IMG/VR virus record: IMGVR_UViG_3300022885_000045
Location: 1-36,638 of that record
Origin: a virus
DNA: 36,638 nt
Reading direction: 5' to 3' (one strand)
The translations under genes were made by a program, and so were the position numbers. Shown one piece after another: positions 894-35,318 of the stretch (position 1 is the first letter of the stretch; every line of letters begins with the position of its first letter). Under the pieces are notes generated by a model. The model saw only the letters and a program-made list of their open reading frames with translations, was not told the origin of the DNA and made no database searches.

Positions 894-3800
894 CTATGTG
901 TTTACACTAATTCCAGTATAAAAGTTTGCGCCAGATATTTCTAAAAATAAATTGTCAGATTGAAAACCCCTAATTTTATCTAAAAATATAAATAAATTGT
1001 CATTTCCAGTAATTGGTTCTGTTGACAAATATTTTATTCCAGTAGTATTATAAACACCAGTATATCCTAAATCATAAAAGTTTTTACCATTACCAGTAAA
1101 ATTATTTTCATAAGACACGAATATATTGTATTCGCCAGTAAAAGTTTTTATATAAGAAATACCAGAAAATATTCCAGTTAAATTCTCAAGGTTTATGTTG
1201 TATTGTTTTTCTTTTAACCCAGTTGGAATATAATTTCCATAATACCCAGTAAATTCGGAATATGCAGATTCATTCATCATTCCAGTATTCCCATCAATTC
1301 TAAAAATATTCTCTGGTTCACCTGTTATATAATTAAAATCAAAATAACCACTGTTATCGTTTATTGTTATATTCTTTAACCCCGTTATTTGTCCAGTTGC
1401 TTGAAATAATCCATTAACATATATAGAAGATGTTTTTGTGTATTGGCTAGTTGAGAAATTTACGCCGCTATCATAATAACCTGTAGAAGCGACGTTTTCA
1501 TTCAATTTTAAAAATTTTCCTGTTACTTTGTTAGAATTAACTGTAGAACCAATTCCAGATTCTAAATAATTATCTGATAAAAAAAAAGTACTTGAAGAAT
1601 TATAGTTGTATCTGATGCCACCATTTAAATAATTATTGTATTTTATAACAAAATCTCCATTATCTTCAAATCCAGTAAATCCATATCCAGTATATACATC
1701 ATTAAAATTTTCTATATACGCTCCAGAATCAAAATTTGGGAAATCTATACCGGGAACCCTATAATTTATATTTCGATCTATTACTATATAATTGCCGCTT
1801 ATTGATTCAATTAATACTCGCATTTTTGAATCGCTTGCATTAAATATGTTTGAAAAACTTATTTTCCCACTTTTATAACCCGAATAAATAATTGGATCTA
1901 TCAAAATATCTTTTTCTATGCCATATTGTGATCCAGTAACTATCCCAGTGAAATTATTGTATCCACTTATTGGGTTTGCTTGTTCAAATCCAGTAAAATT
2001 TGTTCCAGTTGTTTTGTTAGAATTTTGTTTTTCAGTAAAAAGATTATAATAAATATATTCAGAAATTTTATTTGATAAATTATTTCCAGAAATATTTTGA
2101 TCATCTATTAACTCCGTGGAAATTCCAGTAAATTTAAAAGTTGGGGAAATTGTATTATATAAAATTTCAAAAGATTTATCTAATCTAGCTTGTGTAGCAA
2201 ATTTTTTATATTGTATATTAAAAAATCCAGTATCATTTGTACTATTAGTTGATAAAGAAATCGCATAATTTTGCCCCATAGAAATACTCATTGAAAGTGT
2301 ATCGGAATCGCTATCCAACCTATTTGAATCAAGTAAACCGGAAATTATTTGGTCATTTCCGCTGCCACTTAATAAGTAATAACTTGCATATATATTAAAA
2401 TCACCATCAGCCGAAGATGTTAAACTATTAGTTTTTTTATCATAATACATCCTGTCAAAACATTTTAAATATATTGTATCATCGAAAAAGCTAGAATATT
2501 TTAACCAGCAGACATTATTTGGCTCATCTATTAAGCTATTATTTGAACCACTGAATAATTCTTTATAATAATATAAATTTTTTCTACCAATATTAGAAAT
2601 CGGCATAAAACCGCTCAAACCACCCAATATACCAGAATGAATAAAATCTATTCCTGTAGTTTTTTGATCTTGCCCTATTGCAGAATATATTGTTATATCA
2701 GTATTATTAACCAATCTAGCCGAATTTGGAATCATTTCCGAGACTTCTCTATAATCGATTGTATGATTTGATTTGTTTTTTGAAATCAATGGATAACCAG
2801 TTATGGAATAACCAAAATATTCTTCTCCCGAAATTTCTCCGAAAAGCCAAAATTTATGATCTGATTGAGTGTAACCAGAAAAATATAAAAACCCACTATC
2901 ATGAAAACCACCAACTAAATTATTTATACCAGTAGTATCTCCTTCGGCATTTTCTGCAAAACCATAAAATCCGCTTGTATGAGAAACTAATTTCCTAAAG
3001 TCTGTAAATCCATCTACATTAGAAACACATTCTAGACCAGTATAGGAATCATTTCTTCCTGTTAAAACCCCCCCCTGATCATTATAATAAGTAGAATATA
3101 ATGTAAATTCGTTTAATGAATTGCTTCCAGTATAATAACCAGTTGCATTTCCAGTATAATAATAATTTATTTGATTATCAGCAAATATAAAATCAGAAAA
3201 TACTTCATGACTTTCTATTCCAGTATATAAATTTCTATATGTCCCCCAATAACCACTTGTTTCAAAGTTTTCATATCTAGATAATTGGCCAGAACCAGTA
3301 ATATACCCAGTTCCAGAAAAAGTTCCGCCAGTGAAATGTCCAGTTCTTGAAAAAGCTATATTTACATCACCACTTCCTATCCCTGTTGATAAAAGATCAT
3401 AAGAAACTGCGTAATTACCAGTTAAAAATTCTGTTCCAGTTATATATTTTAATATTGTTGAGCCAGAATCAACACCAAGCAAATAGCTATTATATCCAGA
3501 TAGGTTTGTATCGATATTTCCAGTAATATTGCCAGATCCATTTAAATAACCAGAAAAATTTACCAATTGAAATCCAGTGTCTATTGATAAACCAGCTATT
3601 TCCAATTCTTTTAAATTGCTAGGTCCGCCCGTTTTTTCTAGGGAAATATATAAATTAGAAACATCATTTGTAGCAGTCAAACCCCTTCTATGAACATAAT
3701 CAAAAGAAAATAAATTTTGCCCAGTATTGTCAAAAAAATTATCATATGATAAATTAACGTCTAATGTTAGTGTTAATAAAGAATCAAAAGTAAGTGGTTT

Positions 3801-4424
3801 ATTTATAATTCCGTAATCAGTATATATTTCTGCCGAAGTAGAATATTCTCCAGTATTCAAGTCTATCGGGAACAAAAATTGAAATTCTTTGCTAGAATTT
3901 CCAGTAATTGTTTGATAAGAAGAAATTATTAAAGGTTCTTCTAAATTTTTGTCTTCCCCACTGAATATAATATTGCCGCTAAATACGGTGAAATATCTAT
4001 CAGAACTATTACTTATTGTTAAAGATCCAGTTTCATTATTATCAACAAAATCTGTTCCTGATAAAGTAAAATCATTTTCATCTCCATAAAAGAATAATTC
4101 GTAATCAGCATTAGAATTATCAAAGAAAAATTTATCCAAGGAAATGTTTTGTCTTGTTAAAGAGTTTGTTTTTAAATTTCCATTTATAAAAGAATTTGAA
4201 TAACCAGTGAAAGCGTTACCAGAAATTCTTACTGTTGTATCTTCTTGATAATGACTCAAGAAATTTCCATCAGAATCAGTAATCTTTCCATTATTAAAAT
4301 TGTAAGAAAAATTTAATCCCCCAGAGCCACTAAAGCCAAAATCAAAACTATTAGTATTATTCGTTGGCGTAACATTTATAGAATAAATAAAATCGCCTGT
4401 TTGTTCTGCAATTCTTCTAAACAT
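894..4424 (-). CDS. Large Thr-Gly/Ser-Gly-rich tail or baseplate structural protein
   Basis: 1176 residues. The protein is studded with Thr-Gly and Ser-Gly dipeptides: by hand count about 48 TG and 35 SG, roughly one per 14 residues, often followed by an aromatic residue (FTGY, YTGI, FSGY). Asn, Tyr and Phe are abundant and Lys/Arg scarce, which suggests a very beta-rich extracellular-type structure. No enzymatic motif was recognised. The same signature appears in the 604-residue protein two genes upstream (6613-8427), so the two are probably related. The ATG overlaps the TAA of the preceding hub-like gene (TAATG), indicating translational coupling. An 8-G run lies within it at 3068-3075. Likely a distal tail, fibre or host-contact protein; the family is unknown to me. 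Confidence 0.7.
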   Translation of the reverse strand: MFRRIAEQTGDFIYSINVTPTNNTNSFDFGFSGSGGLNFSYNFNNGKITDSDGNFLSHYQEDTTVRISGNAFTGYSNSFINGNLKTNSLTRQNISLDKFFFDNSNADYELFFYGDENDFTLSGTDFVDNNETGSLTISNSSDRYFTVFSGNIIFSGEDKNLEEPLIISSYQTITGNSSKEFQFLFPIDLNTGEYSTSAEIYTDYGIINKPLTFDSLLTLTLDVNLSYDNFFDNTGQNLFSFDYVHRRGLTATNDVSNLYISLEKTGGPSNLKELEIAGLSIDTGFQLVNFSGYLNGSGNITGNIDTNLSGYNSYLLGVDSGSTILKYITGTEFLTGNYAVSYDLLSTGIGSGDVNIAFSRTGHFTGGTFSGTGYITGSGQLSRYENFETSGYWGTYRNLYTGIESHEVFSDFIFADNQINYYYTGNATGYYTGSNSLNEFTLYSTYYNDQGGVLTGRNDSYTGLECVSNVDGFTDFRKLVSHTSGFYGFAENAEGDTTGINNLVGGFHDSGFLYFSGYTQSDHKFWLFGEISGEEYFGYSITGYPLISKNKSNHTIDYREVSEMIPNSARLVNNTDITIYSAIGQDQKTTGIDFIHSGILGGLSGFMPISNIGRKNLYYYKELFSGSNNSLIDEPNNVCWLKYSSFFDDTIYLKCFDRMYYDKKTNSLTSSADGDFNIYASYYLLSGSGNDQIISGLLDSNRLDSDSDTLSMSISMGQNYAISLSTNSTNDTGFFNIQYKKFATQARLDKSFEILYNTISPTFKFTGISTELIDDQNISGNNLSNKISEYIYYNLFTEKQNSNKTTGTNFTGFEQANPISGYNNFTGIVTGSQYGIEKDILIDPIIYSGYKSGKISFSNIFNASDSKMRVLIESISGNYIVIDRNINYRVPGIDFPNFDSGAYIENFNDVYTGYGFTGFEDNGDFVIKYNNYLNGGIRYNYNSSSTFFLSDNYLESGIGSTVNSNKVTGKFLKLNENVASTGYYDSGVNFSTSQYTKTSSIYVNGLFQATGQITGLKNITINDNSGYFDFNYITGEPENIFRIDGNTGMMNESAYSEFTGYYGNYIPTGLKEKQYNINLENLTGIFSGISYIKTFTGEYNIFVSYENNFTGNGKNFYDLGYTGVYNTTGIKYLSTEPITGNDNLFIFLDKIRGFQSDNLFLEISGANFYTGISVNT
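901..907 (-). promoter_or_regulatory. GTGTAAA start-proximal element
   Basis: The minus strand reads GTGTAAA, 8 nt before the ATG at 892. It lies inside the final codons (Ser-Val-Asn) of the upstream 1176-residue tail gene, so the element is kept although it overlaps coding sequence. Proposed phage late promoter element. Confidence 0.45.
3068..3075 (-). repeat. G8 homopolymer tract inside the tail gene
   Basis: Eight consecutive C on the plus strand (G on the coding strand) encode part of Asp-Gln-Gly-Gly-Val. It is the longest G/C homopolymer I saw in a region of about 25-30% GC, where Gly is usually GGA or GGT. One slipped base would truncate the protein. Confidence 0.9.
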
Positions 4425-6613
4425 TATACTCTAATTTTTATGTTATTACTTGAACCCCTTCTAAATTTAATATCTTGCCAACTTTGTGTTGGGTGAATAT
4501 TAAAGTAAGTTTGCTGTATGTATGAATCAGAAGGCAATTTTTGCAATGAAGTTCCAAAGCTATAATTTATATCCATACCACTACTGGAAACAGAAACAGA
4601 CATGCTTTCCAAACCGTCTGAAATCAACAAATCATTCGCGGGAATTTCTGACAAAGAAAAGTTTATTTTCTCGTCTGGATTTTTGTTTTCTATGGCTTGT
4701 CTTTTTATAAGATTTTCGTAAAGTTCTTCTAAAGAACCACCATTAATTTCCACTTGTTCAGCGGTTAATTCTTTGAAGTTTAATTTTATTTTTCTTGCGT
4801 TTTTAGCTCTAGCATCATTAGTTTCGCCGATTCTACCCCAAATTTGCTCTTCGTTATCAGAATAATTATTAGTCACAAATCTAGAACCATTCATTTCAAT
4901 AAAACTTTTCGATTCAACTCCAGAAAAAGAACTAAAATTCAAATCATTTGGCAATTCAAAAGAGAATACTGTAACTGGGATAGAAAAATTTAAATTTAGA
5001 TTTGCGATATCCCAATTTCTAGATTGCAAGCTATTATAAAACTTTTTAACTTTATTTATATCCTCTTGATTTTCATCTGAAGATGCGACCCAATGATTTA
5101 CAGAGTCTAATAAAATACAAGATAATGGTTCTACTTGAAATTCCCCATCACTCCCAGTTCTTCTTAATCTCTGAATTCCAGCTCGGGCAATCGTTTGTTC
5201 TATTGTCTCGTTTTGTTGCCCTAATCTTTTTAATTCTGTATTTTTTGTTGGTTCATTTACTGGAATTGTTTTAAATGGTTGATCCCAATTATAAGCATTC
5301 AAATATTGAGAATTAACAGTCCGAACGTAATATCTACCAGCAACACTTAAAAAATCTAAGAAATCGTTAAAATCACTAGAAAAAACTTTTAAATCATTTA
5401 TTACGACATTTGAAACCGCTGCAACCCTATGTGTTTCTGGTATTATATTATTTGTTCTAAGATAATTTCCAATTTCTTTTATTTTTTCAGAGCCTTCTCC
5501 TTTAAAAATAATTTGATCATTATCAGATGCACCATATATAGCTTTAAAAAGATCTGTTTCCTCTCCTTTGCTTTGGAATAATTTAAACCACACATAAGCC
5601 ATGGCCATTTGTATTCCGCCAGCCAAAGAAGCTTTTAAAAAACTAAATAATTCTCCTTCCTCCGCACTACCTATCAAAGATTCTGGAATTTGATATTGAT
5701 TTCTTGCGATTTCAGCTATTTTTTTTAAATCTCCAGAAAAAGCTCTCTCTAATGTCAGGTTTTCAGTATCTAAACTTTGATAACTTGAACCACCATTATT
5801 TCCCGCCGAAGCGGTTATAACATTTCTACCAAATTGATAATACCCATTAACAGCATTAACATATGTATCTTCAATAGAAAAAGAGCTTGTGATCTCTTGT
5901 TTTTTTGTTATACTGTTTATTTTGGATTTGTTTATTGAAATCGGAGATCTAGCGTCTACAAAAACCAATTTATTATCTTCTGACCAATAATAAGAAAAAG
6001 ATAAATCCTCAGATAATTGGCGCAAAACATCATTAAAAGTCCCGATATAATCTACATAATAATTAGTAATATTTAATACCCCAGAATTTTTTATATTTAC
6101 CTTAGTTTTTAGAATATCCAAGAATTCCTTTGGGGTGTAAAGGATTTTTGCGTCTGGGTCAAATTTATCAAGTTTTTTTACATTTGTTTTTAGAGTATAT
6201 TTCTTTGTGATTTCTTTATAACTTGGGCCACTTATAGATTTATAGGCACTCCCCAGATTAAAACAAGAACCCCCATTTGGATGTTTATATTTTTGTGTAA
6301 CAGCATATTGATCTAAAATCACTGATCCATCCAAGTATTTTATTCTTATAAATTTGCCGCTAGAAGAATTTTTATTATCAAAAGAAACCGGATACATTTG
6401 AAGCTCTTTTTTTCCAAATACTATAGTGGTTGTATTTTTTACAGACAAATTAGCTTTTGTAAAATCATAAGATCCACTTTCATTCACCAATGTAATAGAA
6501 AGAGACGATGGTGTTCCATTAAAACCTATGTCATAAGACATATCGTAAATATACCCACCAAATGGTTTGGTAGATCCGCCTATTTTAATTTGGTCTATTT
6601 CTATAAAAGCCAT
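4424..6613 (-). CDS. Putative tail hub / baseplate hub-like protein
   Basis: 729 residues. The N-terminal about 130 residues are beta-rich (starting MAFIEIDQIKIGGSTKPFG). A segment around residues 195-225 (YVDYIGTFNDVLRQLSEDL, then SYYWSEDNKLVFVDAR) resembles hub proteins of the gp27/gp44/late-control-D type, where a helix follows a loading strand and a Tyr-Trp beta hairpin. The C-terminal third holds further beta segments. There is no clear lysozyme or peptidase motif. It follows the tape measure and distal tail genes, which is where a hub gene would lie. Both ends are coupled by TAATG overlaps. The hub call is a structural analogy from sequence style and position, not a firm family match. 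Confidence 0.5.
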   Translation of the reverse strand: MAFIEIDQIKIGGSTKPFGGYIYDMSYDIGFNGTPSSLSITLVNESGSYDFTKANLSVKNTTTIVFGKKELQMYPVSFDNKNSSSGKFIRIKYLDGSVILDQYAVTQKYKHPNGGSCFNLGSAYKSISGPSYKEITKKYTLKTNVKKLDKFDPDAKILYTPKEFLDILKTKVNIKNSGVLNITNYYVDYIGTFNDVLRQLSEDLSFSYYWSEDNKLVFVDARSPISINKSKINSITKKQEITSSFSIEDTYVNAVNGYYQFGRNVITASAGNNGGSSYQSLDTENLTLERAFSGDLKKIAEIARNQYQIPESLIGSAEEGELFSFLKASLAGGIQMAMAYVWFKLFQSKGEETDLFKAIYGASDNDQIIFKGEGSEKIKEIGNYLRTNNIIPETHRVAAVSNVVINDLKVFSSDFNDFLDFLSVAGRYYVRTVNSQYLNAYNWDQPFKTIPVNEPTKNTELKRLGQQNETIEQTIARAGIQRLRRTGSDGEFQVEPLSCILLDSVNHWVASSDENQEDINKVKKFYNSLQSRNWDIANLNLNFSIPVTVFSFELPNDLNFSSFSGVESKSFIEMNGSRFVTNNYSDNEEQIWGRIGETNDARAKNARKIKLNFKELTAEQVEINGGSLEELYENLIKRQAIENKNPDEKINFSLSEIPANDLLISDGLESMSVSVSSSGMDINYSFGTSLQKLPSDSYIQQTYFNIHPTQSWQDIKFRRGSSNNIKIRV

Positions 6614-8427
6614 TATTCAAAAAATGTTTGTTCGTTATTATATATTACACCAGTTTTGCTCAAATATGCGTTTTGATTGGTTAATAGGCTATTCTGATGA
6701 GAATGTTGGATAAACATCTCATTTTTTTGTCGAACGCCATTTAAATAATATTCCAGAGAATCGATAATATACAAAATTCCAGTATAATTAAAAGAACCAG
6801 TTTCCCTATTTTTTGGCTCAGAAAGTTTGTAAACAAAAACATCATCCCCAGCTTCTAAAATGCCCGTATCATAATAAATACCAGTTTCATTTTTGAAATC
6901 ATAATTTTCTATTAATTTTTGCCCGTTTAAAAATACATAGTCGCCAGTTTCTATATTTATATCTGGTAAATAACCATTTACAAAACCAACAACACCAGTA
7001 TTAGAGAAAGAAGATGTTATTGTATATTTTTTAAAAGTAATTTCTCTAAAATCGTGAATACCAAAATCATTTTCTTCGGCGAACCCAATTGTGTTTGCTA
7101 TCTTACCATCTTCTAGCCAATAGTCTTCATTTAAAAATAAAGACGGGGCATATATTGTTCCGCTATCGCCAAACCCACTTTCTACAAAAAACTGGCCATT
7201 TAGAAAGAATGTGTTTTCGCCAGAAGAAGTATTGTCTATCATATCAAATTCTTCATACCCAAAATTAAAAATTGAATCTTGATTGTATGTTCCGCCTTTT
7301 AGACCAGTTTGTAAATAAGTCAATTCTGATATTGAATTTAAGTATTGTTCTCCTATGTATAATACTGAATTATAATTTAGGTTTTCAAGATAATCGTAAT
7401 TTTTTGTTATTGTGTAGCCAGTTTCCGCTCCAGAAAGAACTGAACCAGTTCCATATAGGGGAATAGAACCAGATAGGTTCTCAATTTCGCCAGACAAAGG
7501 AGTTTCAACATAACTGGTTTCGTAGCCAGTTGTTGTTCCAGATAATAAATTGTAGCCAGTAACGCCAGTATATGAGCCGCTTATGTCTATCCATTTATAT
7601 ATGATGCCGTTTTCGACATCGGTAAAGCAGTCTCCGGTCCATATTGGTACTTTTACTGTTCCTGTTATGTTTGACAATATGCCAGTTAATTCTTCGGTAT
7701 AAAAATAATTAGAGATGCTTGGAGTTTGTATTTCTGCCAATTGATAACCAGTCACCCCACTAGAATATGTATAAACATTTTCATAACCAGTTATTCCACT
7801 AAAGTTGACAGTTTGGCCAGAACCACCAGATGTTACATCGTAAGCAAAACCACTAAATACACTTTTTATTGATTCGAAAGACAATCCAGTATTAAAATAA
7901 AGAAAATTATAAAAAGTTCCAGTAAACATTGGGTAATTTTCGCCACTACCCAAATACCAGTTATCAGATCTCAAAATATAGTCAGAGTCGATAGGAAAAG
8001 ATTCTGAGTTTACAGAAAGATTATTGCTAAATACGTTGAATGTTACAAGATTATCTGTTAATTGAACATTTGCTAAATTTCTTTGTGACAAGTTATAATG
8101 AGAGGTATAAACCACTGGCCCTTCTATATCATATGACTCAAAAAACAAAGAATTTGAGTCTGTTATGCCAATCGCAAACCCACTTGGATAAGCACCGCCA
8201 GATTCGTAATTACTAAACAGAATGCAATCTCCATTTCCACTTTTTTCAAAATCAAAAAATAAAGAACAATTATCAGAAAAATCCCCATCAGAAACTGTTA
8301 ATTTTTGATTCCATAACCCAGTAGACGGAGATTCCCCGCTTATATTATTAAAATTATAAAAAAAATTCAATGTTCCTGTATTAATAAAAGATTTATCAAT
8401 AAAATAATATATGTCTTTTTTAGCCAT
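6613..8427 (-). CDS. Thr-Gly/Ser-Gly-rich tail protein (604 aa)
   Basis: 604 residues with about 20 Thr-Gly dipeptides and many Ser-Gly ones, concentrated in residues 200-350 (units such as VTGYNLLSGTTTGYE). The N-terminal part (about 15-200) reads like a concanavalin/LamG-type sandwich: alternating strands with Asn/Asp turns, FYNFNN and a YLGSGENYPMFTGTFYNF stretch. That fold is common in phage appendages that bind surfaces. The C-terminal about 250 residues repeat a Phe-Leu-Asn-Gly-Gln style (FLNGQFF, FLNGQKL, YYLNGVRQ), suggesting tandem beta units. It is coupled by TAATG to both neighbours. Likely a tail-tip or adhesin component. Confidence 0.55.
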   Translation of the reverse strand: MAKKDIYYFIDKSFINTGTLNFFYNFNNISGESPSTGLWNQKLTVSDGDFSDNCSLFFDFEKSGNGDCILFSNYESGGAYPSGFAIGITDSNSLFFESYDIEGPVVYTSHYNLSQRNLANVQLTDNLVTFNVFSNNLSVNSESFPIDSDYILRSDNWYLGSGENYPMFTGTFYNFLYFNTGLSFESIKSVFSGFAYDVTSGGSGQTVNFSGITGYENVYTYSSGVTGYQLAEIQTPSISNYFYTEELTGILSNITGTVKVPIWTGDCFTDVENGIIYKWIDISGSYTGVTGYNLLSGTTTGYETSYVETPLSGEIENLSGSIPLYGTGSVLSGAETGYTITKNYDYLENLNYNSVLYIGEQYLNSISELTYLQTGLKGGTYNQDSIFNFGYEEFDMIDNTSSGENTFFLNGQFFVESGFGDSGTIYAPSLFLNEDYWLEDGKIANTIGFAEENDFGIHDFREITFKKYTITSSFSNTGVVGFVNGYLPDINIETGDYVFLNGQKLIENYDFKNETGIYYDTGILEAGDDVFVYKLSEPKNRETGSFNYTGILYIIDSLEYYLNGVRQKNEMFIQHSHQNSLLTNQNAYLSKTGVIYNNEQTFFE

Positions 8428-12049: not shown

Positions 12050-15000
12050 TTATCCAGCGGGTGGAGAGTTAAGACCATCGTCTGGTAAATTGTTGCCCCT
12101 CTGATCTGTAAATGTGTTCATTTGTCTTTTTACTTCTGCTTTAATGACGTCAGCTAAAGCATCAGCTTTTAATTCATCTGGAACATTAATATCGATTGTA
12201 AAATCTTCTATGCTCACAATAGCATTTAAATATAAAAATGCTTGTTGCAATATTCCCGGTAAAGAATTAAAAACATTTTTTATTTCGTCTAGTATTAATT
12301 CATTTTTGGTTTCATCTACAGCGCCTCTTCTTTTTCTTTGTAATTCTTTTTCGGCGTCTGTGAATTCTATATTATTTGGATCAACATTTTCTAATTGGTC
12401 GAAAACATTACTTCTTTGTCTTTGTTCTACAATAGAAACCGCTTCTTTGAAATCTTTGCCTTTTCCAATCTCTTTTTGTACTTGCTTAAATAAATCAGTC
12501 GGAACAAGTGTCTCTCCTAGTATTTTTTCATATTCGGCTAAATTATCTTGTAATTTTGTAAATAATTCCTCTTCGTTATCTGTTTCAAGCAAATCGGATT
12601 GAAATTTTTTGGAATTTTCAACTAATTGATTTTGCAATTCCCCAGAAACAAGTTTAGAACTATCATTTTGTAATTCCTCTCTAGTTTTTTCTTCAATACC
12701 ATATTGATTTTGAAACCCACCATCATCTACAGAAGCATCTTCTGGTTGGGCTTGCAGTATATTTGTATCTATTCCGCTAATACCTTCTCTAACTTTATTA
12801 TAAAATTTTAAAGCACCAACTAACGAATCATCATTTACTCTACCAGATTCTCTTGCTAATCGGCTTCTAGACGCATTCCTTGATATTCTAGCAGAAGATT
12901 TATTTTTAATAATTTCTCTTTCGCCACTATCATTAATAAAAACACCAGAATCAACTTCCTCATCTGTTAACGAAGCCCTTTTTACAAGCAATTCTCTTCG
13001 AGCCTTTTCTTTCCTTCTTTGTTCTTCCCCTATATCTGTACCGCCTTCTGGTAATTGACTATTAAAAAATGAATTTGATAATTCTTCTAAACCATTTTCT
13101 TTTGTTAATCTCGCTTCCGTAGCAACGTCTTCTTCACCAAGCAAACTTACTCCATATTTTGATCCAACATCTCTAAGTGCTTTAAATTGATTTCTTGCCG
13201 CGTCCAGATCATTGACGCCAGATTTTCTTTCTGTAGAATCAAAAAGGCCAGAAAAAGAGTTATTCAATTCTTCATCAGAATTACTAGATAAAGCTCTTAC
13301 TTGTTGAATCGTTTGCTCTTTTAAAGCCCTTTGAATTTCTATAGAATATTGTTTGAAATTTTTCTCGCTTCCTATTATTAATTCATTTATTTTATCTTGC
13401 AATTCTCTTGTGTCGAATTCTTTATTGAAATCAGACTCTTCGATTGCTTTTTTAAGTTCTTCTACCCCGCTAATATCCCCGTCAACCAAACCCCTAGTTA
13501 TGTTTTCAGCAAATATCTTACCTCTTCCCCCTATTTCAGATTCATTTGCTTTGACTTCAACAAATTTTATCAATTCATCTCTTACATCAGAATTTAAATT
13601 TTTACCAACTTGTGATTTTTTATTTTCTAAATTTATTATATTCGATTGTTCAGAAGTTAAACTTCCCGAAGAAACCCTAAAAGATCTTTGCTGTTCTTCT
13701 CCAAATGAAGAAATTTGATCATTTAATTCAGACCTTCTAATTTTATTTGTAAAAAATCGGAAAGAATCGTCCAAGAAATCTTCTGTTCTTTTTCTAAATT
13801 TAGCTATTTTTTTAGCTATCTCACTTTCTATTTCAATAGACTCGTTAGAGAATTTTATTCCATCTATACTACTAGAAATAGATTCAACTATTTCTTTTGC
13901 TAAACGGGCAGCGGCTTCTGGGCCTTCATTTCTGAAAATATCATTAACTCTGTTTATTAATTCCCCTGTAGTTTCAGAATTTCCGCCTGTTAATTCATAA
14001 AAAACACCCGACAAAGAATCAATTACATTTTCTGAGTCAAATGATCTATCTATAGAATCTTTTAGAGCGTCTAAATTAGAACCAGCCGTAAGAGTCGAAA
14101 GAGATCCATTTATGCTTTTAATGAAAGCATCTATTCCAGATTTTGAACCAGTTGTATCTCCTTCGTTGAAACCATTTATTTGATTCACTAAATCCAATGA
14201 AATAGATTTTTTTTGGCTTACTTTTTGAAAAGAACTAATGCTTTCTGATAGATCTTCTAAATTTTTACCAGATTTTTTTAAACTATCAACAAGCTTTTCA
14301 TTCGAAATTGTACTCAAAAATGAGTTGGCTTCATTCATTAATTTTTTAGCTTTCCCAGCATCACCATTTTCGATTGCCCTATTATATTGTTCAATAGTTT
14401 TTAAATATTCCCTACTTGCATTAAAATCTTGTTCTCTTGTTTTTAATTCTTCAGAAGCTTTTTGATTGAATTGGTCTAGTTCTTCATCTGATTTTTTATC
14501 TTCCCCTTTTGTTGTTCCAAAAAAGCCATCTGAAATAAAATCTATAGCTCCCCCAGCGACCCCAGACCCAGCAATAGCCCCGATAGCACCGCCAACCACT
14601 GTCCCGATTGGACCCAAAAGAGAACCGAAGGAAGCTCCAGCGGCGAAACCACTCAAGCCACCGCTAACAGATTCATTTTCTACTTTATCGGCAAGAAAGC
14701 CAGCCCCAACGGACAAAAGTAAACTTCCCCCAAAAATTTTACCTGCTCTTCTTGTTTTTTGGTCTTCATTTAGATTTCTTCCAGTAATAAAATTAGAAGC
14801 GGCTCCAGCCCCCTTTTTAACATTTCTTTTTATAAAACCTTGCGACAACAATTTTTGTGTTTTTGGGATTGATCTATTTAGGCTTTCTCTTTGTCTTCTT
14901 TCTACAGATAGTAATTTATTTCCTTCTTTTTTTAAACTTATTTCTTTTTCTTGAAGCGCATTTAAATCTTTGATATTTTCTTTATTTTTTATTTCTGTTA

Positions 15001-19534: not shown

Positions 19535-19564
19535 AAAAAAACCCCGCCTTTTGAGCAGGGTTTT
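19535..19564 (-). terminator. Intrinsic terminator after the tail tube gene
   Basis: On the minus strand AAAACCCTGC, a 7-nt loop and GCGGGGTTTT form a 10-bp stem (one G-T wobble) followed by more T. It lies 35 nt past the stop codon of the tail tube gene. Confidence 0.9.
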
Positions 19565-20695: not shown

Positions 20696-20702
20696 TTTAC
20701 TA
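20696..20702 (-). promoter_or_regulatory. Degenerate start-proximal element (TAGTAAA)
   Basis: It sits at the same 8-nt distance from the ATG (20687) as the consensus sites but has two mismatches. A second CTGTAAA lies about 13 nt further upstream. Confidence 0.3.
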
Positions 20703-23461: not shown

Positions 23462-23489
23462 AAAAAAACCCGCCTTAATAGGCGGGTTT
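23462..23489 (-). terminator. Intrinsic terminator after the major capsid gene
   Basis: The minus strand reads AAACCCGCC, loop TATTAA, GGCGGGTTT, then TTTT: a perfect 9-bp stem with a T7 run, starting about 20 nt past the capsid stop codon. This is a textbook rho-independent terminator. Confidence 0.95.
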
Positions 23490-23510: not shown

Positions 23511-24680
23511 TTAGGAAATAAGTCCAGTAAGAACTCTGTCATCCAAGATAACGTGGCCCGCTTCTCTGCCCCCGTAGAATCCAATCTTACCTCTACGATC
23601 AACGATGAATTGATTGTCAGGTGAAACTGTGAACTGCGAACCCTTATCTGCATCAACGGCGACCATTCTGAATAGTGAGTCTCTTCCCAAGTCAATCGCT
23701 AGGATGATTTCTTCATCACTTTGGATTGCTTGTGCGCTCCCACCATTTTTTGGGGTTGCATAGTTGTCTGCGTATGTTGTCGTACCAGCTTTTGCTACAA
23801 AGATATCATTGAATCTTTGTCCAACACCCAACTCATTGATTTCCATCAAAGAAACGCCCATGAATTCTGATAGACCAGAAGCATTGAACATTTGTTCTCT
23901 AACGCTATCAGGAGCCGCAATTGCGGCGTCACCAGCAGTTGTGTTACTAGGAGTTCCAATCGAAGTGTAAACACCACCTTTAGTGTTGATTGGGTTATAA
24001 GCCATTCCGTAGATTTCTTCGATCATTTCAGGCGAAAGAATCAAATCTGTGAAACCACGACCTACACGAGTTTCTGGTGTACCTCTATTCCAAGCAGAGT
24101 TGATTCTTTTAGAAAGAGTTCTAAGCTTGTTAAGGTCGTCAGGAAGAAATCTTCCTTTGATACCAGTTCTGAAAACGTGTTTTGAACCGTTTGTTGTGGC
24201 ATTAGCCAAAGCGCTCATGATAAGAGAAGCAGTTGTCTTTTCCTCTTTGATCATTACTTCTTGCAACATTCTTGTGAATGTTTTTCCAACAACACCTAAT
24301 CTAGATTGTCTTGCGTATTTCTTTTCGAAACCGTAAGCACTATCAAGAGAGTAAGTCATGAACTTCAACTCTTGTTGAGGGGGAAGTACCATGTTAGTTG
24401 CCAACCCGCCCGGTTGTGTTTGCGACCAAATTCTTAGGTGATCCTCTGTTTCAATATCGGAATAAAGATCCAAAGGAAGACTTGGTGAACTATCTTCATT
24501 AAAAGTTTCTGTCGTAAAAAGATTTGAAACGGTTGGGGCTTTATTGATAACCTCGTTAAGAACTGGTTCAATAAATTCTGCAACAGCCAATTGAGCTTTA
24601 TTAGCAAGAGCAATATCGTTACTAGCCATAGCTTTAACTAGCTCTACATGATCTTTTGTGTGTTTTAGTGTAATATTCAT
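23511..24680 (-). CDS. Major capsid protein (HK97-like fold, inferred)
   Basis: 389 residues. The protein is evenly mixed, with a helical N-terminal region (residues 1-45), an E-loop-like stretch around 60-100 (LRIWSQTQPGGLATN, PPQQELKFMTYSLDS) and a C-terminal P-domain style half with GFTDLILSPEMIEEIYGMAY and FMGVSLMEINELGVGQRFND, ending in strands around FTVSPDNQFIVDRRGKIGF. Order (portal, protease/scaffold, decoration candidate, this gene, connectors) and size fit a major capsid protein. Codon use is clearly richer in GC (about 42% in sampled lines) than neighbours, as for a highly expressed gene. It has a true Shine-Dalgarno sequence (AAAGGAA about 12 nt before ATG) instead of GTGTAAA, and a strong terminator follows. 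Confidence 0.88.
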   Translation of the reverse strand: MNITLKHTKDHVELVKAMASNDIALANKAQLAVAEFIEPVLNEVINKAPTVSNLFTTETFNEDSSPSLPLDLYSDIETEDHLRIWSQTQPGGLATNMVLPPQQELKFMTYSLDSAYGFEKKYARQSRLGVVGKTFTRMLQEVMIKEEKTTASLIMSALANATTNGSKHVFRTGIKGRFLPDDLNKLRTLSKRINSAWNRGTPETRVGRGFTDLILSPEMIEEIYGMAYNPINTKGGVYTSIGTPSNTTAGDAAIAAPDSVREQMFNASGLSEFMGVSLMEINELGVGQRFNDIFVAKAGTTTYADNYATPKNGGSAQAIQSDEEIILAIDLGRDSLFRMVAVDADKGSQFTVSPDNQFIVDRRGKIGFYGGREAGHVILDDRVLTGLIS

Positions 24681-27414: not shown

Positions 27415-27421
27415 TTTACAT
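27415..27421 (-). promoter_or_regulatory. ATGTAAA variant start-proximal element
   Basis: One mismatch from GTGTAAA, 10 nt before the ATG at 27404, in the short gap after the portal gene. Confidence 0.35.
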
Positions 27422-29440
27422 TTATTTATCTTTATTGTGAAATTTTTTGCTGTGATATATAATAGCGGAATTGAATATATTTTCATTGTATTTTTCGGCG
27501 ATATTATATATTTCTGGATTGGTATCAAAAGATGTTAACAAATTAATGTCTTTAGAAACTTTCTCTATATTTTTGTGCCAATCTTTGTTTTCACTAGAAG
27601 CGACAACAGATTCAACCATATGATCTATAAACTTTTGATCTTTTTTTGTAATTCTTTTTTTTGCTTGATTTTGTTTGTATTTTTCTTTTCCGTATTTTTC
27701 TAATTCAGAAATTGCAAAAACAACATCAGCAATGTCTTTTTTATAAAGAACTTCTTTTTTACTCGCAGAAGATTTTTGTGCTAATTCAGAAGGTCGGCCA
27801 GAAGATGAAATAGGTGGTTTTTTAGCACCGCTAGCCACCCCATTTTCTTCTTTCCCCACTGGAGTTCCACCAACAATAGGATTATATAGTCCTTCTTCTC
27901 TTTGTTGTAAAAATTCTTTTTGTGATTCTTCTAATTTTTCTTTTGTAGGATAAACCCCTGTTTTTAAGAATTCAATTCCAGTCTCTGGTGTTAATATCCC
28001 CAACTCCATTAACCTTTGTGCGACTCTATTGACAACATTTTCATCTTTTAGGTTCATTTCTTGAAATTCCGCTGTAGGAGACTTTTGAAATCCAGCTTGT
28101 TCACAGATATCATCAATTTCTTGTTGAATAAAAGTTTTAAAATTAGCTCTTGGTTCTTTGATTCTTTCTAAGAATATCTTTGTTTTAATCATTTGATTAG
28201 CGAATTTACCCTCACTAGAAGAACCAGTTCCAAGAATAATGTTTTGCAAGCCCTCTTTAATGTCTTCGTTTACGATCTCGTACTTCTCTTTCCCAAGGAC
28301 TTTCTTTAAATCTGGAATAACGAAATCAGCTTTAGTTGTATAATCAGAAACCAAAACACGGCCAACGCTTTGATTCAAGAAAAGGCTTTGCATAGCTTTG
28401 ATGTGTTTAGGATTAACACCGCCTTTTTCTGGTTCATTACCCATTGTGATAAGCAAAACAATTTGTTCTACTGTTCGGCATATTGCTTGGTCTATTTTTT
28501 TAAGCTCTAATTTCCAGTTTATATCATCCAATACTGGGTAAACAAAAGGGACTCCAAATGGCTCATAGTCTTGTTTCTTATAAAAAGAATACCTTATCTT
28601 TTCTGGGTCCAATTCAATATAAAGGCCATCATCCAACCAAGTTCCTTCTTTGATTTGCCTTTGCGTTTCTTTTGGAAGTGCATCGAAAATTTGTTGATCC
28701 CTGTCTGTTTTTGGATCTCTAAGTCTTTCTAACTCGTATTGAGACAAAGCTTTTTGGTAATTACCATTATGGAAAGAAGACGAGTGATACAAAGAAATTT
28801 CATAAGGGTTTAATAACAAATACCTTATTGGAATATTTAAACTTTTTACATTGTAAATTTTTGAAATCTGTGCGATTTCTTCTAAAGAAAATTTTGCGTT
28901 TATTCTATAAAGAAAAACATTGCCAGAACGGTAAAATTCTCTGAAAAATTGGTCTTTTAAGCTTTCTATGTTTATTCTTTTTAGCCAAGATTTAACAAAT
29001 TCGCGACTCTGTTTTGTTCCACCCTCTAGGTACATTTCTGAATTCGCAAATTCAGACATAATATCGATTGTGTTTCTTACAATAGAAATATTGGCATAAG
29101 CTTTTTGTGTAAGCTCAATAGCCTTTCTCATTGTTATACCATGTTTTGTGGTACTGAAAGGCATATTTAATTGGTCTATATTATGATATCTAGCATCTTT
29201 GCTATCAACAAAAACCTGATTAAATCTTGAACCAGTTGTTCCAGTAGAGTTGTTTCTTCTTGCTTTTGAGAGATTAGAATTAAATAAATTCGGCGAATCA
29301 TCACCCATTGGTTCCCAATCTTCGCCGAAAGACACGGAATGAGAAACTTTAGGTGTATTTGAAGGGGTTTCTTTACCCAATCTCTTGTTCCAGTAATCTA
29401 AATTCTTTTTTTTATAAGGTCTTTTTGTCTTTTCAGGCAT
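27422..29440 (-). CDS. Portal protein
   Basis: 672 residues. A disordered basic N-terminus (about 1-70) is followed by the portal body: a helical wing with KAYANISIVRNTIDIMSEFA, then FREFYRSGNVFLYRI, RYLLLNPYEISLY, a stem/crown part around WKLELKKIDQAICRTVEQIV and LGTGSSSEGKFANQMIKTK, and EPRANFKTFIQQEIDDICEQ. This matches the order of motifs in phage portal proteins (RTVEQ-type central helix and a Lys/Ser tunnel region). The C-terminal about 170 residues are Lys/Glu/Ser-rich and look flexible. It follows the large terminase gene and has GTGTAAA 7 nt before the ATG. It probably forms the dodecameric vertex and DNA entry channel. Confidence 0.88.
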   Translation of the reverse strand: MPEKTKRPYKKKNLDYWNKRLGKETPSNTPKVSHSVSFGEDWEPMGDDSPNLFNSNLSKARRNNSTGTTGSRFNQVFVDSKDARYHNIDQLNMPFSTTKHGITMRKAIELTQKAYANISIVRNTIDIMSEFANSEMYLEGGTKQSREFVKSWLKRINIESLKDQFFREFYRSGNVFLYRINAKFSLEEIAQISKIYNVKSLNIPIRYLLLNPYEISLYHSSSFHNGNYQKALSQYELERLRDPKTDRDQQIFDALPKETQRQIKEGTWLDDGLYIELDPEKIRYSFYKKQDYEPFGVPFVYPVLDDINWKLELKKIDQAICRTVEQIVLLITMGNEPEKGGVNPKHIKAMQSLFLNQSVGRVLVSDYTTKADFVIPDLKKVLGKEKYEIVNEDIKEGLQNIILGTGSSSEGKFANQMIKTKIFLERIKEPRANFKTFIQQEIDDICEQAGFQKSPTAEFQEMNLKDENVVNRVAQRLMELGILTPETGIEFLKTGVYPTKEKLEESQKEFLQQREEGLYNPIVGGTPVGKEENGVASGAKKPPISSSGRPSELAQKSSASKKEVLYKKDIADVVFAISELEKYGKEKYKQNQAKKRITKKDQKFIDHMVESVVASSENKDWHKNIEKVSKDINLLTSFDTNPEIYNIAEKYNENIFNSAIIYHSKKFHNKDK

Positions 29441-29454: not shown

Positions 29455-29476
29455 AATTTTACTTTGAAAGTAGAAA

Positions 29477-31402
29477 TTAAAACATAACTGGAGTAAAACC
29501 ACCGTATTCTTCTTCGTCTGACATATTATTCATCTCATAATATAATTGTACAAACCAATTCCCAAGCACCAAAGCAGAGTAGGAGTCTTTACGGGTTTTA
29601 TACTTACCTTTGTCTCTTTTCAAACTATCAGGTAAGTCAAAGCTTCTATTTCCAAGCGCAGAAACTTTTTGTATAATTAAAGCTGTCTCGTTTATGGTTA
29701 AGTCTATATTGTCGCTTTGCTTTTCGAGGAAATCAATCACTTTACTTTGTTCTTCAATTTTGTCGTTGTATTTTAATTCTGTGTCAAATTTTATGTTTTT
29801 TAGATCTATTTTTTTCAGATCTTTCATATTTGTTTCCAGATTGTGTCTAGAAGCAAATAGTATTTTTTGTTTTTCAAAGCTTTTGCATAACATTTCATTT
29901 GATTGTCTTATCCAATTTGAAGAAGGAGTTCTTAAAAACACATAATCTTTATAGTCTGGCTTGTAGAATCTTTTTAATTTTTGCAGCTCTTTTTTTCTCT
30001 CTCTTTTGCCTTCGTCAGAATTGTCACTCTCTGTTTTGACAGAAGGAAATATTCCAAGATTAATATTTTGGTCTTTAAATAAAGCGCTTTCATTGCAAGC
30101 TTTTATAAATTGATCCCCGCCGTTATAGTCGCCTATAATCCCGACAACATTAAAATTTTTCAATAAATACAAGAAGTAATTCATATGGGACTCTAATTGT
30201 TGGCCTCTCAAAGCATAGCTATGGACAACTATCCCCGCTTTTTTTTCTTCTACAAGTTTTATAACATGAATAGCAAAATCATCTGACGTATCATTACCAG
30301 CCCAAGATGGGTCAAAAGCAATAATGTATTTTTCTCCACCCTCCCCTTTTAATTCTACCATTGGATATTCACCTATGTTTAACGCACACTCTTTTATTGT
30401 TTTTAAATTAAAGAATCCAGAACTATCGTCTGTAAATTCAGCGCCGAACTCCCTTTTAAATTGGGCTTCTGTCATTGTTGCGCGGGATTGATTCAAAAGA
30501 TTTTGGTCATGCAAACCTTTTGGTAAAGCATCATGGGCAACTTGAAAAACTGCTCTTGTTGCGGTATCATCGATTTCTTTGTCTGGATTCGCTTCTTTGG
30601 CTTTTTTTAATGCTTCATTAGGATCTTCAATAAAATTTATGTATGTAGAATAAAGTCTATAAAAGAAATCAAAAGTATAACCCGCAGATGATAAACTCAC
30701 TAATTTGTTGTTTTGGAAATCAGTTCTTTCTTCTTCGGTAAGTTGGCCCTGTTCTATCAACTTATCTTCTATTTTTGTGATTCTTTCTCTTTCTCTAGGA
30801 TCGGCTACAACCCCTAAGAAGGGAACTATAACTTCATTGTAAATCTTTTCTGGCATCAACAACATTTCGTCACAGATAATAACATTAAAACGAAAACCAC
30901 GGAGCTTGCCCCCGTCTCCCAACGGCAAAGAAAGAATTTTGCTTCTTCCTATTTCCATTATCCACTGGTCGCTTCCTTTGCTAACTTTTGTTACGCATTT
31001 TTTGAATGGGCCAGCTTTTTTATTGTTCATGATATCCTCTAATTTTGTGAACATCATTTTTGATTGACGAAATGAGGGCGCGAGAATACCAACAGTAACA
31101 CCTTGATTCATCAAAGCATAAAGACCAGCATAAATAGATGACAAGTAAGTTTTACTTCCACCTCGCGAAATAACACCAATAGTATAATCAGTATTAAACA
31201 TCGTTTTAATCATTATTTCTTGTATAGGATACAAATCAACATCCATTATCATCTTTGTTGTCCATCTTATGTTATGATACATGAATTTATACAAGAGAAC
31301 TTTGGCTTTATGTTCTTCTATATAGCCATCGATAGATTCTATTTCATCATTTATATTATGAAATCTTGGGTTTCTTCTTTTCTGTTCTCCTACTACTAAC
31401 AT
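29477..31402 (-). CDS. terL: Terminase large subunit
   Basis: 641 residues. The N-terminal ATPase has Walker A IGVISRGGSKT (about 75-85), a following helix with ILAPSFRQSKMMF, and Walker B NVIICDE (Asp178-Glu179). The C-terminal RNase H-fold nuclease shows Asp364 (IIAFDPSWAG), Asp425 (GIIGDYNGGD) and a third likely metal ligand near Asp606 (RKDSYSALVLGNW). This is the motor that cuts and pumps DNA into the prohead through the portal. The start overlaps the end of the ERCC4 nuclease gene by 7 nt, showing tight coupling in the packaging operon. The length is typical of T4-like and large siphovirus terminases. Confidence 0.95.
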   Translation of the reverse strand: MLVVGEQKRRNPRFHNINDEIESIDGYIEEHKAKVLLYKFMYHNIRWTTKMIMDVDLYPIQEIMIKTMFNTDYTIGVISRGGSKTYLSSIYAGLYALMNQGVTVGILAPSFRQSKMMFTKLEDIMNNKKAGPFKKCVTKVSKGSDQWIMEIGRSKILSLPLGDGGKLRGFRFNVIICDEMLLMPEKIYNEVIVPFLGVVADPRERERITKIEDKLIEQGQLTEEERTDFQNNKLVSLSSAGYTFDFFYRLYSTYINFIEDPNEALKKAKEANPDKEIDDTATRAVFQVAHDALPKGLHDQNLLNQSRATMTEAQFKREFGAEFTDDSSGFFNLKTIKECALNIGEYPMVELKGEGGEKYIIAFDPSWAGNDTSDDFAIHVIKLVEEKKAGIVVHSYALRGQQLESHMNYFLYLLKNFNVVGIIGDYNGGDQFIKACNESALFKDQNINLGIFPSVKTESDNSDEGKRERKKELQKLKRFYKPDYKDYVFLRTPSSNWIRQSNEMLCKSFEKQKILFASRHNLETNMKDLKKIDLKNIKFDTELKYNDKIEEQSKVIDFLEKQSDNIDLTINETALIIQKVSALGNRSFDLPDSLKRDKGKYKTRKDSYSALVLGNWFVQLYYEMNNMSDEEEYGGFTPVMF

Positions 31403-32319
31403 TTTGATATAAAGTATTGCAAATCTACTTTTTTTAAATCTTCGGCAAAATCCAATAACCTTGGTATTAAAAATTTAGATTCTTCTCTACCGCCAGAAAA
31501 AACAAATTGGATATTCTCTCTATATTCATCAGTTAAAGCTCTTATTTTTGCATACACAGCTTTTAAATTAATAGGGAAATTGTTTACTTCGTTATAATTA
31601 ATCAGATCATCAAGCTCGCACTCAACAACTATAAACATATAGCCTTCGTTTTTTACGCATCTGTTTATTTCTTTTTTGAATCTTGGTAAATTTTTGCCAA
31701 GAGTTTGAAGCAAATCCGCAAGATTTTTTCTTTCAACAGAATATTTGCTATCCAAGAAGGAGTAATCCCCATAATCAAGTTTTTCTGAGAAAGATTTTTC
31801 AAATTCCAAAACTAATTGTTCTCTAGTGTCTATTTGTATTACTTCGTTTATTTCTTTTGTGAAAAAATTTTTTGGTAATTTTTTGTCGTAAAATATATTA
31901 AAACCAGCTTCTTCTGCGATTCTCATATAAGAACCAAAGCTTTCTTGGTAAACGCTTAATTGCGGCAACCTTTCTGAAAATTGCAAATCAAGAAAATTAG
32001 GCGCGATATCTGATTCCCGATATTCCCTTTCTTTTTTTAAGACACTGAATAGATATTCTTTTGCTGTTTTATCGTTTTGTTTTTCTAGCCAAGCAAATAG
32101 TTGATCTCTACTATCAAAATCTTTTGCAAAATAAGATTCTAATTTTTTAAATGGCATTGGCTCCCTAGTTAAAAGATTGTATTTGGGATAATGTTTTGTA
32201 TAATAACCAGCCATTATCATATCATGTTCTTTTAAGTGCATATGAAGATCCTTTCTGGAATCAAACTTTTTTCTACATTCTTTGCAGATATTTTCCTGCA
32301 CTTCTTTTGGAACTAACAT
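31396..32319 (-). CDS. C2H2 zinc-finger / ERCC4-type nuclease
   Basis: 307 residues. The N-terminus carries a classical C2H2 finger with C12-x2-C15-x12-H28-x3-H32. The middle and C-terminal half (about 160-240) match the XPF/ERCC4 nuclease: D164-T-R-E, then G184-D185 and E196-R197-K198-x3-D202, the defining GDX(n)ERKX3D signature, with MFIVVE as the following beta strand. All catalytic residues are present, so a structure-selective DNA nuclease is expected. It sits between the putative small terminase and the large terminase. A role in packaging cleavage, branch resolution before packaging, or as a free-standing homing-type element are all possible. The fusion of a finger to this nuclease is unusual in my knowledge. 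Confidence 0.85.
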   Translation of the reverse strand: MLVPKEVQENICKECRKKFDSRKDLHMHLKEHDMIMAGYYTKHYPKYNLLTREPMPFKKLESYFAKDFDSRDQLFAWLEKQNDKTAKEYLFSVLKKEREYRESDIAPNFLDLQFSERLPQLSVYQESFGSYMRIAEEAGFNIFYDKKLPKNFFTKEINEVIQIDTREQLVLEFEKSFSEKLDYGDYSFLDSKYSVERKNLADLLQTLGKNLPRFKKEINRCVKNEGYMFIVVECELDDLINYNEVNNFPINLKAVYAKIRALTDEYRENIQFVFSGGREESKFLIPRLLDFAEDLKKVDLQYFISKC

Positions 32320-33368: not shown

Positions 33369-34097
33369 TTAAATTATTATATCCTCATCTTCCATTATTT
33401 TTTTTGCTTTAATAAGGAAATTCTTTTTTAATTTTTTTATTGTATTATAACCAGCGGGTCTGTTTTTTTCGTTTGTTATGTATCCAAGTTTTTCCGCAAC
33501 TATTTTCTCTGGTAATTTTTGTATAAATAATAAATCATAACATTTATAATCTTTTATCGTCAATGAAAGCCTCATCTTCTTGTGCAAAAGATTTTCAGAA
33601 GCCTCGTAGTCTATATATGTGGTATTTCTATTCTCTATTGGAATTTCCTGTGTTTCGATGGGGACGGGTAATTTAATGTTGTATGCTTGTTTTTTTGATC
33701 TTATCCATTTAGCATACATTGGGCACTCTTCACATTGGATTCCAGATTTTGTTAGTGTACAACCATTTTCTTCTGAATTAAGAACAAATTTACCGCCTTT
33801 TTTGCTGGAATTAAATTCGCATCCCAAACATGGCCTCGCATAATTATAATAATTGTCTCTGAGAATATTTTTTATTCTATTATGGGCTATTACGTTTACC
33901 CAAGGGCCAATTTTTCCCTTTTCTTCGTCCCAAAGGTGCAGCTTTTCGTATATGTGTAAAAATATTAATTGTTTTACATCCTCGAAACTCATCCAAGGGA
34001 TCGCCTTTAGATTCCACTTGTTTCTTTTGGAGGTTACGACTCTATTTATTTCTTCGTAATTTTCCTCGAAGATTCTTTTCCTTTTTCTGTCTTGCAT
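33369..34097 (-). CDS. Sigma-factor-like protein with zinc-binding insert
   Basis: 242 residues. Residues about 36-83 carry sigma region 2 style sequence (SFEDVKQLIFLHIYEKLHLW and GPWVNVIAHNRIKNILRDN), matching the E-D-x2-Q-x2-F / W-x3-I-A-x-N-x6-R spacing of sigma-70 family core helices. An insert with C90-x2-C93, C113, C122-x2-C125 probably binds zinc. Residues about 178-232 resemble a region 4 helix-turn-helix (LPEKIVAEKLGYITNEKN then YNTIKKLKKN). It would direct host RNA polymerase to phage promoters, as T4 gp55 and other phage sigma factors do. It lies between a zinc-ribbon gene and the packaging genes. Confidence 0.72.
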   Translation of the reverse strand: MQDRKRKRIFEENYEEINRVVTSKRNKWNLKAIPWMSFEDVKQLIFLHIYEKLHLWDEEKGKIGPWVNVIAHNRIKNILRDNYYNYARPCLGCEFNSSKKGGKFVLNSEENGCTLTKSGIQCEECPMYAKWIRSKKQAYNIKLPVPIETQEIPIENRNTTYIDYEASENLLHKKMRLSLTIKDYKCYDLLFIQKLPEKIVAEKLGYITNEKNRPAGYNTIKKLKKNFLIKAKKIMEDEDIII

Positions 34098-34106
34098 AAG
34101 AAGGGA

Positions 34107-34499
34107 TTAGGAAATATCTTTAGACTTTGAGGCGGGAGAACAATCTTTTGTCATGTTTTTAGAAAATTCCCCGTAATCAATTATGTCCGATTTGTTTTTC
34201 CTTTTGCCCATCTTAAATTGGCTGTTCCCCTGTTCAGAGGATTTGTTTAATGCTGACTGTAAAGTTGTTCTTTGTTGTATTGTTCCATCTATAATAACAT
34301 TGGCAGATGAAAAATCAATTTTTAAATTATCAATATCAATATCAAATTCATTGTCTTTAATTTCTTCTGATCTAGATGTACTTTTTTGTGTTTTTATTAA
34401 TGTTTCGCCTATTCTGGTTTCACAAAATGGACAAACTTTTGGCTTTTTACTTGAAAATTGTATTTTCTCTGCGCAGTTACTGCAATATATATGACTCAT
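34107..34499 (-). CDS. Zinc-ribbon protein (130 aa)
   Basis: 130 residues. The N-terminal zinc ribbon is C6-x2-C9 ... C23-x2-C26 (IYCSNCAEKIQF, VCPFCETRIG). The remaining 100 residues are polar, Asp/Ser/Lys-rich and probably disordered, with one beta-like patch (SSANVIIDGTIQQRT). It is 9 nt upstream of the sigma-like gene, so the two are likely co-expressed; it could be a transcription co-factor or a single-strand nucleic-acid binder. A GTGTAAA copy lies 33 nt before its ATG, farther than at other genes. Function is unknown. Confidence 0.65.
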   Translation of the reverse strand: MSHIYCSNCAEKIQFSSKKPKVCPFCETRIGETLIKTQKSTSRSEEIKDNEFDIDIDNLKIDFSSANVIIDGTIQQRTTLQSALNKSSEQGNSQFKMGKRKNKSDIIDYGEFSKNMTKDCSPASKSKDIS

Positions 34500-34539: not shown

Positions 34540-34545
34540 TATAAC

Positions 34546-35271
34546 TTATTTTTTGTGAGATTTAAGGCTTTTAATAATGAATTTTAATATTTCGCTTCTT
34601 TTAATATCTTCTTCATTAAATTCAAAACAGTGAATCCCCCATTCTTGCGCGTCTTCACTATCAAATATGTTATACATTTTTTCAAAACCACTTTTACTAC
34701 CAATATCAGATTGCATTGGATCTCCACAAAAGAAGAATTTGCTATGCTTTCCTATTCTTGTTATGATAGTTTGACATTCATTGAAAGTCATATTTTGAGC
34801 TTCGTCCACAATAACCACTTTTTTGTTTTGACTCGCGCCTCTAAAAAAATTCACTGGTATCCCAGTTACTCTTTGGCTTTTTAATAATTCTTTTATATCA
34901 TCTGGGCTCAAAAGCTCTTCTAGTTTTTCTTTTAGTGGTAATAAAAATGGATCAAATTTTTCATCTATAGATCCGGGTAAAGCCCCAATACTTTTATCCG
35001 CGCTCTCAGCTAAACTTCTAATATAAACTAATTCTAGTTCCTCATGAACTTTCATTAATTCTAGTGCTGATAATACTGATATAAATGTTTTTGCGCTTCC
35101 TGCAACACCACTTATAAAGAATATATTTGTTTTATTGTTTAGAGATAATTTTAAAAAGTTTTTTTGCTTATCTGTAAGATCAAACTTTTTAATTTTAAAG
35201 TCGCTTTTAATTTGCGGGATTACTATTTCTTCTTCTTTAGACGTATTTTTAGAATTCTTTTTTCTTGGCAT
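34546..35271 (-). CDS. PhoH-like ATPase
   Basis: 241 residues. Walker A is G55-VAGSA-K61-T62, Walker B V-V-I-V-D156-E157-AQN, and a third motif FFCGDPMQSD (about 180-189) matches the PhoH-family sensor. A linker helix pattern around SADKSIGALPGSIDEKFDPF is also typical of PhoH. The role of the PhoH-like proteins in phages is unsettled; RNA or DNA helicase-like activity and phosphate-stress links have been proposed. It is the first gene of the minus-strand module, with GTGTAAA 9 nt before the ATG, and it begins the long leftward operon. Confidence 0.85.
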   Translation of the reverse strand: MPRKKNSKNTSKEEEIVIPQIKSDFKIKKFDLTDKQKNFLKLSLNNKTNIFFISGVAGSAKTFISVLSALELMKVHEELELVYIRSLAESADKSIGALPGSIDEKFDPFLLPLKEKLEELLSPDDIKELLKSQRVTGIPVNFFRGASQNKKVVIVDEAQNMTFNECQTIITRIGKHSKFFFCGDPMQSDIGSKSGFEKMYNIFDSEDAQEWGIHCFEFNEEDIKRSEILKFIIKSLKSHKK

Positions 35272-35280
35272 ACAAATTAA

Positions 35281-35287
35281 TTTACAC
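35281..35287 (-). promoter_or_regulatory. GTGTAAA element, leftward member of divergent pair
   Basis: Minus-strand GTGTAAA lies 9 nt before the PhoH-like ATG (35271), back to back with a plus-strand copy at 35312-35318. Confidence 0.55.
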
Positions 35288-35311
35288 TTTAATTTAAAAA
35301 ACAGAATTTTT

Positions 35312-35318
35312 GTGTAAA
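35312..35318 (+). promoter_or_regulatory. GTGTAAA element, rightward member of divergent pair
   Basis: Plus-strand GTGTAAA lies 8 nt before the ATG at 35327. The 24-nt AT-rich spacer between the two copies would hold the upstream parts of both promoters. Confidence 0.5.

Follow-up and report, generated by a model that had tools for sequence, protein, structure and literature searches.

GTGTAAA, with the core GTGTA, is probably (at roughly 0.8) a single-element, -10-like late promoter that would be read by a sigma factor of the phage itself and would give mRNAs with next to no leader. The word was analyzed in a 36.6-kb tailed-phage contig (the window, meaning the whole stretch of DNA considered here), which has a GC content of ~31% and carries all but a few of its genes on the minus strand, and in the relatives of this phage. 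The original prediction of a late promoter recognized by a -10 element only and yielding leaderless or nearly leaderless mRNAs is supported by the placement of the word, its conservation, an edge at 9 nt in its distance from the start codon, the loss of Shine-Dalgarno words, the presence of a sigma gene and the properties of the early gene class. We infer the transcription start site, the late timing (from gene content) and the role of this sigma factor as the reader of GTGTA.

All coordinates and distances given in that prediction were found again (Table 1). The listed sites lie on the minus strand except for the one at 35312–35318. The two strong terminators noted at the outset are genuine on the minus strand, with a GTGTAAA site after each, and the reported lack of a -35 box is borne out, A/T richness being the sole upstream feature conserved over several genes. 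For the divergent small gene (35321–35533, plus strand), the promoter placement predicts translation from the ATG at 35327 and not from the upstream ATG at 35321. Sister contigs (99–100% identity) retain the window's sites. A tenth GTGTAAA site is found in a sister contig, 7 nt before the ATG of L021:11239-11679 (minus strand). This gene is located at the distal end of the early region; its 146-aa product has two hydrophobic segments and may function in lysis or belong to the virion.

Table 1 GTGTAAA sites, terminators and principal genes of the window.
Feature	Positions	Strand	Remarks
GTGTAAA	901–907	minus	8 nt before ATG 892; within the 3′-terminal part of the ORF before it
GTGTAAA	10394–10400	minus	8 nt before ATG 10385; occupies the 15-nt space separating neighboring genes
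Tape-measure protein gene	12050–17686	minus	Led by the element
GTGTAAA	17695–17701	minus	8 nt before tape-measure ATG 17686
GTGTAAA	19489–19495	minus	12 nt before ATG 19476; comes right after a terminator
Intrinsic terminator	19538–19564	minus	Followed by a GTGTAAA element
TAGTAAA, weak variant, doubtful	20696–20702	minus	8 nt before ATG 20687
GTGTAAA	23435–23441	minus	7 nt before ATG 23427; comes right after a terminator
Intrinsic terminator at the end of the capsid block	23466–23489	minus	Followed by a GTGTAAA element
ATGTAAA, one-mismatch variant	27415–27421	minus	10 nt before ATG 27404
Candidate portal gene, downstream of the terminase gene	27422–29440	minus	Candidate by position; 45% conserved
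GTGTAAA	29448–29454	minus	7 nt before candidate portal ATG 29440
Large terminase gene	29477–31402	minus	Translation-coupled, without the element
ERCC4-type nuclease gene	31396–32319		Recognizable by family
Phage sigma factor gene	33369–34097	minus	ECF-like region 2 and probable region 4; invariant four-cysteine linker
Zinc-ribbon protein gene	34107–34499	minus	Directly upstream of the sigma gene, a synteny kept in most relatives
GTGTAAA	34533–34539	minus	33 nt before ATG 34499, the start of the zinc-ribbon gene in the sigma operon
PhoH-like gene	34546–35271	minus	Recognizable; led by a GTGTAAA element
GTGTAAA	35281–35287	minus	9 nt before PhoH ATG 35271
GTGTAAA of the divergent gene	35312–35318	plus	8 nt before ATG 35327, 2 nt before in-frame ATG 35321

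The order PhoH, zinc ribbon, sigma, g323, ERCC4, terminase and portal is common to the relatives, and the proteins are mostly 30–50% identical. In a search of annotated phages the terminase reached 20–27% identity at best. The gene downstream of the terminase probably encodes the portal protein, a call made from position and conservation with no family match; 23511–24680 is called capsid by position and conservation alone, also with no family match. Contigs from metagenome-assembled genomes were rejected as a guide to the host, as their bins conflict (Flavobacteriaceae, Verrucomicrobiales and Patescibacteria) and they are probably misbinned phage.

The raw count of GTGTAAA is in modest excess, with 12 exact copies on both strands of the window versus 5.3 ± 2.3 expected from dinucleotide shuffles, 2 of 100 of which reach 12. 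These low numbers are what speaks for an origin of the motif in chance or in the composition of AT-rich upstream DNA, but the positional enrichment is far above that of shuffled sequences, leaving this explanation with a negligible probability. All eight minus-strand copies precede a gene start on the coding strand, and three of the four plus-strand copies are antisense inside genes. The word ends 5–12 nt before 8 of the 27 gene starts in the window, compared with an average of 0.03 for shuffled upstream regions (2000 shuffles). It is the top 7-mer at this distance, where the best count of any 7-mer in the 2000 shuffles is 5. The pattern GTGTAAA-N(5-12)-ATG occurs eight times and its reversed control does not occur. 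Position, more than raw count, is thus the strong result. Equal frequency of the word in coding DNA, which the original prediction had named as evidence against a promoter, was not found.

Conservation at orthologous starts in distant relatives, which the same prediction called for, holds for the first five bases, GTGTA, and not for the full 7-mer. Exact GTGTAAA is confined to the window's species and is nearly absent from distant relatives, a result that looked like a refutation and was resolved once GTGTA was seen as the core. The core stands before the portal gene in all 51 relatives, whose proteins are 40–50% identical, before the PhoH gene in 25 of 30 and before g253 in 24 of 35; it is also found before g269 (9/9), the orthologues of the gene starting at ATG 27404, and before g230 (10/11), at starts orthologous to ATG 23427. 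It is usually followed by A/T, and the flanking bases vary apart from their A/T richness. Six contigs found through terminase similarity alone, and not selected for the sigma gene or the motif, give the same picture. Conservation across contigs with 40–50% protein identity, together with this independent set, again argues against chance. Microcystis phage MaeS and Bacillus phage Slash served as negative controls. Their terminases are distantly related, and neither has a recognizable homologue from this sigma family, Slash encoding another, ECF-type sigma; GTGTA is absent from the corresponding interval before their starts, where Shine-Dalgarno words are found instead. One relative, G015, counts against the promoter reading in that GTGTA is not prominent genome-wide (5-mer rank 31).

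A separate feature was seen upstream of GTGTA before the portal gene, where 50 of 52 contigs carry the dyad AAGT-N(0-2)-ACTT, often repeated, which occurs almost nowhere else tested; the window has the inverted form ACTTTGAAAGT at 29461–29471. This dyad is a possible operator or upstream activator site.

The spacing between GTGTA and the start codon was surveyed over 986 non-redundant ATG starts in the clade. The distance is 9 nt in 40 cases and 10–13 nt in 57, with none at 7–8 nt and a tail to ~30 nt. A start codon must lie within its own transcript, so this hard lower edge with a tail points to a fixed transcript start. Shine-Dalgarno-like words are found at 5 of 97 starts with GTGTA 8–13 nt away, at 13 of 38 with GTGTA at 18–32 nt and at 179 of 816 without GTGTA. 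The starts with distant GTGTA look like ordinary leadered genes served by the same promoter.

The word could alternatively, as the original prediction had allowed, be a translation-initiation signal that replaces the Shine-Dalgarno sequence, as its distance resembles that of a ribosome-binding site and the genes with nearby GTGTA are those without Shine-Dalgarno words. GTGTA is, however, restricted to block-leading genes, and almost all late blocks, here and in dozens of relatives, open with it. The coupled internal genes must be translated as well, yet GTGTA precedes none of them in four ortholog groups (0/263; sigma 0/64, g323 0/67, ERCC4 0/66 and TerL 0/66). A translation signal also fits poorly with distances that break off sharply on the short side and tail out to 33 nt, with the gain of Shine-Dalgarno words where the copy is distant, or with the occurrence of GTGTA after terminators. 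Furthermore, early genes place a recognizable sigma-70 -10 box at the same spot. Such a signal is therefore quite improbable, and the promoter reading is preferred.

The early genes of the clade carry a TTGACA-like sequence, a 17-nt spacer (65 of 90) and a TANNNT hexamer, which ends 6 nt before the start in 49 of 90 cases, versus 1 of 723 reversed upstream regions. These TTGACA-N17-TANNNT sequences are read as host sigma-70 promoters, which would produce leaderless early mRNAs. If the TA of GTGTA opens a -10 hexamer, then in most late genes that hexamer ends 5–7 nt short of the start, matching its position in the early genes. Early and late labels rarely fall on one gene (two cases), and they cluster significantly along the genome in only 2 of 6 contigs. 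A generic sigma-70 promoter scan was uninformative.

A host primary or alternative sigma factor, perhaps assisted by a phage activator, might instead use GTGTA as an extended -10 element, with the phage sigma reading something else. The GTG-TANTAT of relatives does resemble an extended -10 site, and in three long relatives there is a gene for another sigma-like protein besides this one (G013:85348-85557, G014:70989-71093 and G015:2085-2261). Nevertheless, the early genes have a clear -35 element and the GTGTA sites have none, and the G is displaced by one base from the canonical TGn. The phage sigma gene is moreover present in every long clade record tested, and phages without this sigma lack the motif. 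Recognition by a host sigma is accordingly judged unlikely, though less so than a translation signal, and the phage's own sigma remains the favored reader.

In this reading, host RNA polymerase would carry the ECF-like sigma factor of the phage, which would recognize GTG near positions -15 to -13 and TA near -12/-11 with no need for a -35 box. RNA synthesis would begin about 9–10 nt downstream of GTGTA, at the ATG or a few bases before it, such that most late mRNAs would be leaderless or nearly so.

The product of the sigma gene matches Pfam Sigma70_r2 above the curated cut-off. The sigma70-ECF model TIGR02937 matches 21 of 21 family members at E ≤ 0.01 (best 1.8e-9) and spans regions 2 and 4; for the window protein the match (5.5e-8, residues 5–225) is below the model's curated cut-off. 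Both the region-2 and the C-terminal helices are confident in the predicted structure. Three of five relatives match Sigma70_r4_2 weakly, which hints at a region 4-like helix-turn-helix. Among the top Foldseek matches, sigma subunits in RNA polymerase complexes predominate, with E-values of 0.009 and above and none ≤ 0.001, and a sequence search against solved structures gave weak matches alone. An alignment built from relatives found via PhoH was used to search a viral collection, and the TIGR02937 matches above refer to an alignment of 21 members. The gene is conserved in more than 70 uncultured phage contigs (71 were found in the viral collection), with no relative among 50,697 phage records and none in a profile search of genome contigs. 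A search for a T7-type RNA polymerase gave no match, but its control gave none either, so absence cannot be deduced from it.

Four cysteines, C90, C93, C113 and C125, are invariant between the two sigma domains in the 21-member alignment, which suggests a linker that binds zinc and takes the position of region 3. It is tempting to speculate that this zinc-knuckle-like segment itself reads GTG, making the five bases a self-sufficient promoter with the transcript starting exactly on the start codon throughout the clade; this extension is doubtful at present. The zinc-ribbon protein, a small protein with the ribbon at its N-terminus, is a possible partner or co-factor candidate of the sigma factor. 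The promoter of the sigma gene itself follows no general rule in relatives, where GTGTA occurs in 5 of 26 upstream regions and a sigma-70-like sequence in 2 of 26; in the window, the GTGTAAA of the sigma operon lies 33 nt upstream of ATG 34499.

Two further differences between sister contigs were observed. An IS607-like element of ~2 kb (a serine resolvase and a TnpB/Cas12f-like gene; L021:1638-3611) adjoins a DNA methylase gene; its empty site is at 36370/36372 of the window, and a third contig carries a different insert at that position. A GC-richer block (L020, about 3966–6700) is present in sister contig G001 and absent from sister contig G003, which is strain-level gene exchange in the early region.

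Together, the two promoter types make the early and late promoter code of a large phage clade readable from sequence alone. With promoter type, unknown genes can be given an expression class, start codons can be corrected and a sigma family can be tied to a DNA word. If the leaderless placement is true, the leading genes of early and late blocks are expressed mostly without Shine-Dalgarno initiation, which constrains the hosts that these phages can infect.

No GTGTA phage late promoter was found in the open papers searched, an incomplete library; among these sources the promoter sequence, the four-cysteine sigma architecture and the clade-wide placement at the start codon are new. Late promoters of phiKZ have conserved bases near the transcript start as well, namely TATG at the start site (PMC7598289), but phiKZ uses its own multisubunit RNA polymerase, and none was found in eight records of this clade. 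The late promoters of T4, which the original prediction had taken as the model, are short, are recognized at the -10 region alone by domain 2 of a phage sigma and serve virion genes (PMC2988020). The gp55/gp33/gp45 system of T4 thus shares the -10-only logic, the phage sigma and the type of gene controlled. The two differ in that gp55 and gp33 are separate proteins, whereas the window protein appears to hold regions 2 and 4 in one chain, and the T4 TATAAATA-type promoter is not the one seen here, where the core is GTGTA. The gp47 sigma of the phiEco32-like phage 7-11 has a region 4 and recognizes GTAAtg-16-aCTA at late promoters before virion genes (PMC8948821). It resembles the present family, whose C-terminus is region 4-like, in the genes served, but its promoter is bipartite, and no upstream element was found here.

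The sigma promoter of phiEco32 is by analogy a closer counterpart than that of T4. Promoters of its gp36 consist of one element, tAATGTAtA, with no -35 and a start 6–8 bp downstream (PMC8948821). As in that system, a phage sigma on host RNA polymerase would here use a single promoter element without a -35; the sequence of the element differs, and the start in the present clade would lie at the start codon. Additionally, gp36 is without region 4, whereas the window family has a region 4-like C-terminus and the four-cysteine linker. With gp36 there is very weak homology at best: hhalign gave no significant result, and there was no direct profile match. PHROG 1740 matches gp36 and, weakly and via relatives, the window family. 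A phage sigma factor with a single-element late promoter is a known kind of system, and the present uncultured clade probably provides a variant of it.
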